From the IMG/VR virus record IMGVR_UViG_3300035670_000495, positions 1 to 41,716 of that record: a stretch of DNA of 41,716 bases; one strand, written 5' to 3'. The notes beneath the pieces are model-generated. The model worked only from the letters and a program-made list of their open reading frames with translations, had not been told where the DNA came from and did no database searches. Below are positions 24,967 to 28,545 of this stretch, piece after piece (within the stretch, counting starts at the first letter, position 1; the number at the start of each line of letters is the position of its first letter). The translations under genes and the position numbers were made by a program. Source of the DNA: a virus.

Positions 24967-25659
24967 CTAGTCTTTGGCTAAAGACTCTTTCTTCTTGACC
25001 AACTTGAGAACATTTGAGACGGTTGAGGCGTACCACCGCCCACCGGCACCTGTAGGAATGTTTAGATTGTTCAACTTTCTAGCTATTTGATGAAGAGAAA
25101 CGCCCTTTGCCCGGTCGTCGATGATGATTTGCTGAATTTCTTCACTAACCTTCGACCTAGGACCAAGATCAATTCCCCAAACCTTTCCGCTTTCTCGTCG
25201 GTCCCGGTGGACGTCCTTCTGACGCTCGGCGATGATGGCTCTTTCCATCTCCGCTAGAGCTGACATGATTGTGACAACGAACCGACCTTGGTAGCTGGCT
25301 GTGTCGAGGTTGAGATCGAGCATGACAACTCGCCAGTCGTTCTTGGTCGCTCGGTCGATGATACTTAGGAAGTCCTGAGTAGATCTGGCCAGGCGGTCGA
25401 TCCTGGTTACGAACAGGGCGGTCGCGTCTCCTCGGTCTAGCCGCTCGAGGCAGTCCTGAAGAACAGGCCGACCCGAGATGTTCTTCCCTGACCGACCTTC
25501 CTCCTTCATAAGCTCGGTCTTCTTGTACCCGGCGGCTGTGGCGGCCTTCTTCAGGGCTCTTTCTTGAACGGCAAGGGATTGACCGTCACTTGCTTGCATC
25601 TGAGTTGACACTCTTGCGTACAGAAGTGCCACTTCTTTCTTTGTTGACCCCATAGTCAT
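24967..25659 (-). CDS. Small serine recombinase (resolvase/invertase family, 230 aa)
   Basis: The resolvase catalytic domain is clear: LLYARVSTQ with nucleophile Ser18 (numbered from the chosen start), then a GRSGKNISGRPVLQ region, ALFVTRIDRLARS, and ALAEMERAIIAERQK leading into the long helix. The C-terminal ~60 residues (VSEEIQQIIIDDRAKGVSLHQIARKLNNLNIPTGAGGRWYASTVSNVLK) are a single helix-turn-helix segment. The protein is thus of resolvase/invertase size, not a large ~450-500 aa serine integrase. The open frame extends 47 codons further upstream, but ATG 25659 (or 25653) follows AAGGG and the upstream part contains a promoter, so the longer form is unlikely. Candidate roles are fibre-gene inversion, multimer resolution or small-element transposition. 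Confidence 0.85.
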   Translation of the reverse strand: MTMGSTKKEVALLYARVSTQMQASDGQSLAVQERALKKAATAAGYKKTELMKEEGRSGKNISGRPVLQDCLERLDRGDATALFVTRIDRLARSTQDFLSIIDRATKNDWRVVMLDLNLDTASYQGRFVVTIMSALAEMERAIIAERQKDVHRDRRESGKVWGIDLGPRSKVSEEIQQIIIDDRAKGVSLHQIARKLNNLNIPTGAGGRWYASTVSNVLKLVKKKESLAKD

Positions 25660-25696
25660 GAAACCCTTACTGGTCTTATGTTTGAGTGAATAAGGT

Positions 25697-25727
25697 ATCA
25701 TAACACATGAAACTGCTGGTTGTACAA
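25697..25727 (-). promoter_or_regulatory. Probable promoter of the serine recombinase
   Basis: On the minus strand TTGTAC (25722-25727), a 19-base spacer and TATGAT (25697-25702) place the start near 25690, about 30 bases before the chosen ATG and its AAGGG. The spacer is longer than ideal. This placement supports the shorter 230-aa form of the recombinase. Confidence 0.4.
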
Positions 25728-25842
25728 AGCTAAACCTAAGTATGTACAGCCAGAAAGCCCTGCCAGTATGGCCCGTTTCACAAAAACTAGGTGCTAGCAT
25801 CTGACTCCGCCAACAGTTATTATCTAGACAGGGAGGCCATTC

Positions 25843-26323: not shown

Positions 26324-27088
26324 TTGAAAACAACAATAGTTACTTTTGTGCTATTCCTGAGTTCAGTGTTTGGTTTACGACATACCAACGTGACAGTAGA
26401 AACAGTAAAGACAGTAGAGACAGCAAAGACGGCGGTGACGGTGGGGACGATCCGGGAGATCGAGGCCCGGGAAGCCCAGGTCAGGGACCAGGGTGAAAAC
26501 GCGAGATTTCAGGCGTCCCTATTGATCCTCCAAGGATCATACAAGTTCGACGAGGTCAGTGAAAACGTGAAGGCTCTCCAGAATGTTCTGGGGAATGTGA
26601 GGGTTGATGGCCACTACGGCGGGATTACCCGGAAGCGTCACATTGAGGCGCTGAAGGCGAACGGTCTGCCCACTGACAACGTCCCGGACGCTAAGTACCG
26701 AAGTTCTGAACTTGGCAAGTACAACATTTCAGACAACCTCGAAGAGCGCTGTCCAATGTGGGAAGACAAGTTTAGAGAATACGGTCTTGAACCAGTCGAG
26801 GTGTTCTCATACATTGCGTACAGAGAAAGTCGGTGCAACCCCAAGGCTGTCAACGCGAAGTTTGACGCTAATGGAAACGTGACGTGGACGCTGAACAAAG
26901 ACGGGTCTGTCGATCGTGGACTTGTTCAAATCAATTCGACATGGCGAACTGTGACTTCTGAAGTGTGCAATGCACCCAAGGGCAAGCTTGAAGTTCTTTA
27001 CGATGTTGACTGCAATCTCAAGGTCGCTAAATACTTGATGGACAACACGGACTCAAAGCTCGGTAATTGGAGAGTTTGGAAAAAATAA
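26324..27088 (+). CDS. Secreted lytic transglycosylase-like lysozyme (254 aa)
   Basis: The start is TTG at 26324 with AAGGAG eight bases before it. An N-terminal hydrophobic segment (TTIVTFVLFLSSVFGL, residues 3-18) is a signal peptide or anchor. Residues ~80-120 contain a peptidoglycan-binding-like stretch (VKALQNVLGNVRVDGHYGG...RHIEALKANGLPTDNVP) of a type I associate with Acidimicrobiia and other actinobacterial cell-wall proteins. Residues ~150-254 form an SLT/lysozyme-like domain: catalytic E168 in AYRESRCNP, DRGLVQINSTWR, a C-x-N-LKVAKYL helix and NWRVWKK at the end. The enzyme should cleave the glycan strand of peptidoglycan outside the membrane, during lysis or virion entry. It reads convergently with the basic protein and endolysin group. 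Confidence 0.85.
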   Translation: MKTTIVTFVLFLSSVFGLRHTNVTVETVKTVETAKTAVTVGTIREIEAREAQVRDQGENARFQASLLILQGSYKFDEVSENVKALQNVLGNVRVDGHYGGITRKRHIEALKANGLPTDNVPDAKYRSSELGKYNISDNLEERCPMWEDKFREYGLEPVEVFSYIAYRESRCNPKAVNAKFDANGNVTWTLNKDGSVDRGLVQINSTWRTVTSEVCNAPKGKLEVLYDVDCNLKVAKYLMDNTDSKLGNWRVWKK

Positions 27089-27262
27089 GTAGCCAGGCTC
27101 TCGGCCGTCACCTCCGAGCGGCCGAGACGCCCGTCCTAAGGTAGCGGTAGGAATTGTCTAACGCTACGACTGTCCTTCGTTGCTCCAGCGCGGGTCGGAT
27201 TGCTCCTTTCATGCCCGTGCAAGTTGTGATTATGACAGGTCGCTGTGTCGTTAGACCTTAGC
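27089..27262 (+). ncRNA. Candidate structured RNA with a short 23S-rRNA-like segment
   Basis: Three nested or adjacent stems occur in a space between convergent genes. P1 is a perfect 9-bp stem, TCTCGGCCG (27099-27107) with CGGCCGAGA (27119-27127). P2 is TCCTA (27134-27138) with TAGGA (27148-27152). P3 pairs GTCTAACG (27156-27163) with CGTTAGAC (27249-27256), continued by CGACTGTC (27167-27174) with GACAGGTCG (27234-27242, one bulge), and encloses a GCGCGGG/CCCGTGC stem. GTCCTAAGGTAGCG (27133-27146) is identical to the universally conserved helix 69-71 segment of bacterial 23S rRNA. The strand is unproven because stems work on both. P3 includes the stop codon of the minus-strand gene. Alternatives are a complex bidirectional terminator or a decayed insert. 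Confidence 0.5.
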
Positions 27263-27463: not shown

Positions 27464-27718
27464 TTACCCTGCGAGTTTACCTGTGACATGGTCATTGATG
27501 TGCTGGTCGAGCTTAGCCTCTGTTCTAAGCGAAGTAACTTCAACACGATCAATTGAGCGACCGAGATTACTTCCCAACGTGTCAATCTTGTCCATGATCG
27601 CGCCATGAGCGTCATCACTATCTTGCCAGTGCTTATTAGCAACGCGACGTTCTCGCTCCATGTACGCAACAACAATAGCTGCTACACCTGTAACCGCCGA
27701 AGCAAACACCAGTTCCAT
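27464..27718 (-). CDS. Small membrane-anchored coiled-coil protein, holin-like candidate (84 aa)
   Basis: Residues 2-19 (ELVFASAVTGVAAIVVAY) are one transmembrane segment. It is followed by a charged helical region (ERERRVANKHWQDSDDAHGAIMDKIDTLGSNLGRSIDRVEV...LRTEAKLDQHINDHV) with heptad-like spacing, which should lie inside the cell. The start lies two bases past the endolysin stop, so it follows the endolysin directly. Single-pass small proteins next to endolysins are often holins or their regulators. The family was not recognised, so holin is an inference from position and topology. Confidence 0.65.
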   Translation of the reverse strand: MELVFASAVTGVAAIVVAYMERERRVANKHWQDSDDAHGAIMDKIDTLGSNLGRSIDRVEVTSLRTEAKLDQHINDHVTGKLAG

Positions 27719-27720
27719 GA

Positions 27721-28545
27721 CTAAGCGATGTCCAACATCTTGAGGACTCTTGGTCCGGCTTTTGGTCCCTTCTTCAGGCCATTAGCTGCCTTGAACGCTT
27801 GGACTGCTGCTGCTGTTGACTGACCAAACACTCCGTCAGCCTCTCGTGCAAAGTGACCGTGCTTCTTGAGAGCCTCTTGAAGCTTCTTCACTCTGTCGCC
27901 CTTGTCGCCCGGCTTCAGCGCCTTTGGATCGTCGTCATCTGCCGGTTCCTTAGCATTCTCACCGGGGGCTGCTGGCGGCGGTGGTGTTGTCATCTCGGCA
28001 GGCTGTCCTGACGCAAACGCCTTGACGGCCTCAGGAAGATTGTCGCCGCAGACGTATCGCAAGTGCCACGGCTCTGATGGAACAACTTCCCACGAGAAAC
28101 CGAACTTGGCGACATTGGCGATCAGCCAATTGAGGCGCTTTGGCTCAGAGGCTGTATGAACGTCAACAGCGATGCCGAGGTTGTGCATGCTCTTTCCGGG
28201 AGTAGCGAGCATCGCCATTCCCTTCTTGAGATACCACTTCTTGCCTTCGAACTCCTTTGTGCTGGCGCCAGGAATTGGCTCGAGCTGATAGCGCTGGAGA
28301 AATCCGCGCTTTTGGAATTCGTACTCACGGTAGGTGTCACCGGAAGATGTCGGCTTTAGTTCAACTCCGTCTGCTTTCGCCGCAGCGACCATAGCTGCCC
28401 AAGCCTGCGCTGCCAGCCAATGAAGCTTTCCGCCTCCGACCGCCGGGCGCAGCAAGCGCTCGGGGAGCTTTCCCGGCTCGATCCCTTGGAGGTCTTTTGG
28501 CATTGTGACTTTGACAATGTAATCCCACGCTACTTTCTTTGACAC
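27721..28545 (-). CDS. M15-type D-Ala-D-Ala peptidase endolysin with peptidoglycan-binding domain
   Basis: Start GTG (28545) behind AAGGAG. Residues ~40-175 carry the VanY/M15B zinc peptidase signature: S119-x-H121-x2-G-x-A-x-D128 in SMHNLGIAVDVH and E158-P-W-H161 in EPWHLRY; H121, D128 and H161 bind zinc and E158 is the base. A proline/acid-rich linker (~180-205) leads to a PG_binding_1 domain (KPGDKGDRVKKLQEAL, DGVFGQSTAAAVQAFKAANGL). The enzyme would cut stem peptides of host peptidoglycan at lysis. No signal peptide is present, so it needs a holin; small membrane proteins are encoded on both sides (27464-27718 and 28612-28695). Confidence 0.9.
   Translation of the reverse strand: MSKKVAWDYIVKVTMPKDLQGIEPGKLPERLLRPAVGGGKLHWLAAQAWAAMVAAAKADGVELKPTSSGDTYREYEFQKRGFLQRYQLEPIPGASTKEFEGKKWYLKKGMAMLATPGKSMHNLGIAVDVHTASEPKRLNWLIANVAKFGFSWEVVPSEPWHLRYVCGDNLPEAVKAFASGQPAEMTTPPPPAAPGENAKEPADDDDPKALKPGDKGDRVKKLQEALKKHGHFAREADGVFGQSTAAAVQAFKAANGLKKGPKAGPRVLKMLDIA

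Follow-up and report, generated by a model that had tools for sequence, protein, structure and literature searches.

The intergenic segment between two convergent genes in the window (the whole stretch of viral DNA analyzed here, 41,716 nucleotides) belongs to an undescribed family of conserved, structured phage RNAs, a conclusion that is well supported by the comparison of its copies. The family comprises 37 phage records, including the window and the phage DSL-LC01, and 25 non-identical copies made up our working set; a covariance model located one copy per genome in each of the 16 records scanned. The family has a covarying hairpin, two nearly invariant stretches, and a fixed synteny with lysis genes. 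We infer that the element is transcribed as a discrete RNA, that it base pairs with the ribosome, and that it thereby affects translation. In the reading that we favor, with a probability of roughly 0.4, it would derive from the 3' UTR of the lysis operon, be transcribed from the minus strand, and pair with ribosomes late in infection.

The copy in DSL-LC01, a deposited phage of 129 kb from Dishui Lake with a host predicted as Actinomycetia (PMC10611076), occupies the same genomic place as the window element and is 80.5% identical to it. A gapped pattern scan of viral contigs added 31 further contigs in which the two motifs stand at nearly constant spacing, and looser scans brought in L123, L128, and L131 as well as the divergent L117. 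The phages carrying the element probably infect lake-dwelling actinobacteria. As a check against bias that does not depend on the pattern, we searched with an alignment (18 members) of the small basic protein encoded next to the element. This search returned 80 loci, 27 of which contain the element, with TCACCTCCG exact in all 27 and CCTAAGGTAGCG exact in 24, the other three carrying one mismatch. The initial annotation had centered on a 14-mer resembling 23S rRNA and had made its case depend on conservation in relatives. That conservation is borne out for 12 of the 14 nucleotides, but not for the first two (GT), which are kept only in DSL-LC01, L032, and L117. Since the 12 nucleotides recur in relatives found only via the neighboring protein, a chance 14-mer was rejected. 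Among the element-less basic-protein loci tested, the covariance model found no diverged copies. Two scans of prokaryote genomes (257 Gb) gave no copies, returning nothing or only unrelated matches; a prophage or host gene was therefore rejected, and the family seems to be restricted to phages that are absent from sequenced host genomes. One pattern match, L034, was set aside as a chance occurrence inside a 796-amino-acid ORF resembling a tape measure gene. Two copies are composite: L027 (1323-1517) combines hairpin 1 of L017 with flanks and a remainder identical or nearly identical to those of L021, as if hairpin arms had been exchanged through recombination, and L025 joins a hairpin 1 of the L013 type to a remainder of the L017 type.

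The initial annotation was right to describe a strongly folded noncoding element. It is intergenic, lying between convergent ORFs that end at 27088 (+) and 27251 (-), and on either strand the window segment is more stably folded than its dinucleotide shuffles (z, -2.4 on plus and -3.1 on minus). Ten of the 12 pairs of hairpin 1 show two-sided changes, and hairpin 1 and the small hairpin S1 together give a covariation score of 0.436, versus 0.127 after shuffling and at most 0.120 for slid controls. Covariation beyond both kinds of control marks a conserved structured RNA. An alignment of the whole element was unsatisfactory, as the register of hairpin 3 differs between subgroups, and the formal test was for this reason carried out on hairpin 1 plus S1 and on 14 alignable copies. 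S1 itself shows no covariation because one of its arms is invariant; its pairing is kept in nearly all copies, with shifts in register and loop size, and its arms read CUAAG and CUUAG in most relatives, around the loop CGCUAC. In the possible pseudoknot S2, at least five complementary nucleotides link the S1 loop to an upstream GUAGC(G)-like sequence in all 25 copies; the register changes between copies, and the complementarity is not significant copy by copy. The arms of hairpin 3 are almost wholly unlike those of DSL-LC01, yet paired in both, and across copies the fold and the purine loop on the minus strand are kept while the arms change. Two structural claims of the initial annotation did not hold up in relatives: GGCCGT, taken for the start of helix 69, lies in a stem whose sequence changes freely with pairing kept, and the closing stem of 16 bp is peculiar to the pair formed by the window and DSL-LC01, being weak elsewhere, with five loosely conserved pairs. 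In about half of the copies, a U-rich stretch (no fewer than 5 U among 8 nucleotides) comes after hairpin 1 on the minus strand, clearly so in L117; the U-run is absent in some, e.g., L003, L012, and L123.

Of the two nearly invariant stretches, one (TCACCTCCG) is the loop of hairpin 1, and the other, CCTAAGGTAGC(G), forms the core of the 14-mer. In alignment A3, the hairpin 1 loop is invariant in all 21 distinct rows, and so is GCTACCTTAGG (minus sense). This loop, TCACCTCC on the plus strand, had escaped the initial annotation, although it is as invariant as the 12-mer.

The RNA is quite probably made from the minus strand, i.e., as the complement of the strand read initially, a judgment that we base on the pairs of hairpin 1 and on the orientation of the lysis genes. 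In a strand-neutral stem search, the ratio of G-U to A-C combinations in hairpin 1 was 30:0 on the minus strand, with the qualification that these cells are often shared by descent and do not represent 30 independent events; in aligned columns it was 13:3. Hairpin 1 is also less stable on the plus strand in 25 of 25 copies, partly owing to the shared loop. The U-rich stretch that comes after hairpin 1 on minus in about half of the copies agrees with this orientation. The evidence from hairpin 3 and the closing stem is neutral or slightly opposite: energies computed for hairpin 3 on either strand gave no decision, and G-U pairs in the closing stem are slightly more frequent on plus. With the RNA on the minus strand, the conserved stretches complement rRNA rather than copy it, and the rRNA mimicry suggested by the initial annotation thus probably has the wrong sense.

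The element comes immediately 3' of, and on the same strand as, a lysis cassette made up of an endolysin, a holin-like gene, and a small basic ORF (Table 1). The endolysin carries VanY (2.5e-15) and PG_binding_1 (1.6e-11) domains by Pfam. The minus-strand cassette is present wherever the flanks are long enough, even in the most divergent copy, L117, whereas the gene on the plus side varies; in the window, the ORF ending at 27088 (+) is transglycosylase-like, with an SLT domain (Pfam). The basic ORF found no match in Pfam, PHROG, or PDB, so that homology to a known (e.g., ribosomal) protein was rejected. Its family, represented at loci L035 to L114 and in the window, follows the pattern MGKKKK..NPLTG..E.V.GTKAGKKR..LP.GHPLRTHDL. 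The window has a resolvase/serine recombinase gene at 24967-25800 (-), some 1.3 kb away from the element; such a gene also occurs near the element in DSL-LC01, L008, and L013 and was not seen beside most other copies. In DSL-LC01, the short "hypothetical protein" WJZ48421.1 falls largely inside the element, on the plus strand (L002:4337-4426), and is probably not a real gene.

Table 1. Coordinates in the window of the element, its parts, and the adjoining genes; for the element and its parts, the minus sign denotes the probable RNA strand
Feature	Position	Strand	Remarks
Whole element	27089..27258	-	Minus-strand RNA from the stop codon of the basic ORF to hairpin 1
Hairpin 1	27096..27131	-	GGC+TCTCGGCCG / CGGCCGAGA+GCC, one bulge
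Hairpin 1 loop	27108..27115	-	GGAGGUGA on minus, TCACCTCC on plus
14-mer of the initial annotation, GTCCTAAGGTAGCG	27133..27146	+	Exact; a single occurrence in the window and also in the full virus record
12-mer	27135..27146	-	CGCUACCUUAGG on minus, CCTAAGGTAGCG on plus; complements 23S rRNA 1924-1935
Small hairpin S1	27135..27151	-	CCUA/UAGG here, CUAAG/CUUAG in most relatives; 12-mer in loop and 3' arm
Possible pseudoknot S2	27141..27167	-	GUAGCG (27162-27167) with S1 loop CGCUAC (27141-27146)
Hairpin 3	27188..27220	-	Loop GAAAGGAG at 27203-27210
U-run, possible terminator tail	27080..27085	-	After hairpin 1
Small basic ORF, 67 amino acids	27251..27454	-	Just 5' of the RNA; stop codon inside the 5' end of the element
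Rest of lysis cassette: 84-amino-acid holin-like ORF and endolysin	27464..28545	-	Endolysin assigned by Pfam; order same in relatives

The invariant stretches of the family correspond to functional rRNA sites in both subunits; the comparison used an actinobacterial (Tsukamurella) operon, and positions follow E. coli numbering. For the duplex of CGCUACCUUAGG with 23S rRNA 1924-1935, the predicted energy lies between about -22 and -26 kcal/mol; within the element's own RNA, part of the 12-mer is paired. Taken alone, the 14-mer match in the window sequence is no more than moderately unlikely: the window element and the full actinobacterial operon share at most 13 nucleotides in a row, a length that 0.6% of shuffles reach, and the reference operon has AT, not GT, before CCTAAGG. 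For any one 11- to 12-mer, the probability of a match to an rRNA operon is about 1 in 1,000. For this reason the 23S part alone is not proof, and the match could still be coincidental. A fragment of 23S rRNA or an rRNA gene was rejected, as the bacterial LSU model RF02541 has no match in the virus record and the flanks of the 12-mer are unrelated to 23S rRNA.

The relation to the small subunit involves two loops. That of hairpin 1, which reads GGAGGUGA in minus sense, is complementary to UCACCUCC in the 3' tail of 16S rRNA, with a predicted duplex energy of -15.2 kcal/mol, its plus-strand form being identical to the tail. The hairpin 3 loop, GAAAGGAG, likewise complements the anti-Shine-Dalgarno tail, as do the variants AGAAAGGA, GAGGAGGA, and GAAGGAGG found elsewhere, and in 15 of 25 copies this complementarity exceeds that of shuffles (P <= 0.05). 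It is thus in the hairpin 3 loop that rRNA complementarity is kept through sequence change; the hairpin 1 loop and the 12-mer do not vary. Purine runs that resemble Shine-Dalgarno sequences occur commonly in phage genomes. A ribosome-binding site of a hidden ORF was rejected, since no conserved start codon follows GGAGGUGA at the usual distance. Both loops contain GGA, the loop motif expected of a CsrA-sponge RNA; CsrA is generally missing from actinobacteria.

On these complementarities we base a tentative mechanism. A single-copy RNA of about 165 nucleotides would form the 3' portion of the transcript that covers the lysis cassette, or would be released from that transcript as a processed sRNA. 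The free 3' tail of 16S rRNA might be held by the loops GGAGGUGA and GAAAGGAG, while the hairpin with CGCUACCUUAGG would pair with 23S rRNA 1924-1935, adjoining helix 69 on the intersubunit face; the pseudoknot may hide the 12-mer until the target is met. Ribosomes or subunits could in this way be tied up late in infection, with initiation or subunit joining blocked, or, as an alternative effect, ribosomes could be recruited to the lysis mRNA.

The main rival to this mechanism holds that the element is a conserved 3'-UTR structure of the lysis mRNA, combining a terminator or stability hairpin with a binding site for a phage or host protein, and that the rRNA resemblance is incidental. We consider this possible, if on the doubtful side. 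The GC-rich hairpin 1 at the 3' end of the lysis transcript, with a U-rich stretch next to it in about half of the copies, would suit such a role, and the very basic small protein encoded by the adjacent gene could bind RNA; yet a plain terminator needs neither an invariant loop nor an invariant 11-mer, several copies have no U-run, and the basic ORF is common in phage loci without the element. Unlikely in our view is a plus-strand RNA that mimics rRNA, with the 16S tail in its loops and the 23S segment beside them, and titrates a ribosome or assembly factor or a modification enzyme. It would explain why the plus strand is identical to rRNA at both sites and accords with the slight G-U excess of the closing stem on plus, but it conflicts with the G-U pairs and the stability of hairpin 1, both of which favor the minus strand, and with the lack of conservation of the helix 69 stem resemblance. 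The same pairs of hairpin 1 argue against a plus-strand sRNA whose C-rich loops (CACCUCC and CUCCUUUC) bind the Shine-Dalgarno sequences of mRNAs, like C-rich-loop sRNAs of Gram-positive bacteria. Although two loops are indeed anti-Shine-Dalgarno on plus, the invariant 12-mer would be left unexplained, and we regard this reading as very improbable.

An element acting as DNA at a junction of convergent genes, be it a recombination boundary or a replication or packaging site, is likewise improbable. The composite structure of L027 and the recombinase genes near four of the copies would fit recombination, but most copies have no recombinase beside them, and the G-U asymmetry of hairpin 1 would have no reason in DNA. 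The decoy for a homing endonuclease of the I-CeuI type that the initial annotation had entertained finds no support: only 11 to 12 nucleotides of the site are kept in the family, no endonuclease was found among the neighboring proteins scanned, and an endonuclease would need no more than the DNA word, while conservation here extends to an RNA fold that includes two stretches related to rRNA.

The family belongs to no described class of RNA and is categorically new in that sense. The initial annotation had seen no fit among known phage RNAs, and Rfam release 15 gave no match to the window element at E <= 10. No tRNA, tmRNA, or known riboswitch was found. In the relatives, the best sub-threshold matches were DUF3800-XI (19.0 of 37.8 bits) and epsC (17.7 of 42), far below the gathering cut-off that a covariance-model score must exceed for membership, and DUF3800-XI also matched below threshold in 8 of 14 control genomes; both were rejected.

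Phage RNAs that act on the host mostly target mRNAs or proteins. In a review of sRNAs encoded by phages, those covered have mRNAs or proteins as their targets, and the word rRNA is absent from its text (PMC12197685). With these regulators, such as c4 RNA, the element shares small size, phage origin, and complementarity between loop and target, but its proposed target is rRNA; another of them, PAK_P4as15, concerns an endolysin gene (PMC12197685). Our literature search yielded no description of the element family. The 6C RNA of actinobacteria is an sRNA with C-rich loops, and the element resembles it in having hairpin loops related to Shine-Dalgarno pairing; in contrast, the probable RNA strand of the element carries the Shine-Dalgarno side and would be aimed at rRNA, not mRNA. 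The 3' cap-independent translation enhancers of plant viruses, found in eukaryotic RNA viruses, are complementary to 18S rRNA. These share with the element a structure in the 3' UTR whose conserved loop complements small-subunit rRNA, but serve translation enhancement and have no homology to it.

Conceivably, although we think it rather doubtful, the element is an anti-ribosomal phage RNA that addresses at once the 16S anti-Shine-Dalgarno tail, by two loops, and the 23S helix 69-71 junction, and so controls host ribosomes at the end of infection. If true, an RNA aimed at two highly conserved ribosome sites would constitute a new form of viral translation control, with proposed targets named to the nucleotide. 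Even if the ribosome idea fails, a conserved structured phage RNA family without a described class remains. As a minor observation, the window reads GTCGCTGTGTCG at 27240-27250, where GCTCGTGTGTC is not kept; many copies have GCTCGTGTGTC, at the 3' end (plus sense) of L007, L012, L013, L016, and L032, and within it lies GCTCGTGT, an 8-nucleotide 16S rRNA word that may be due to chance.
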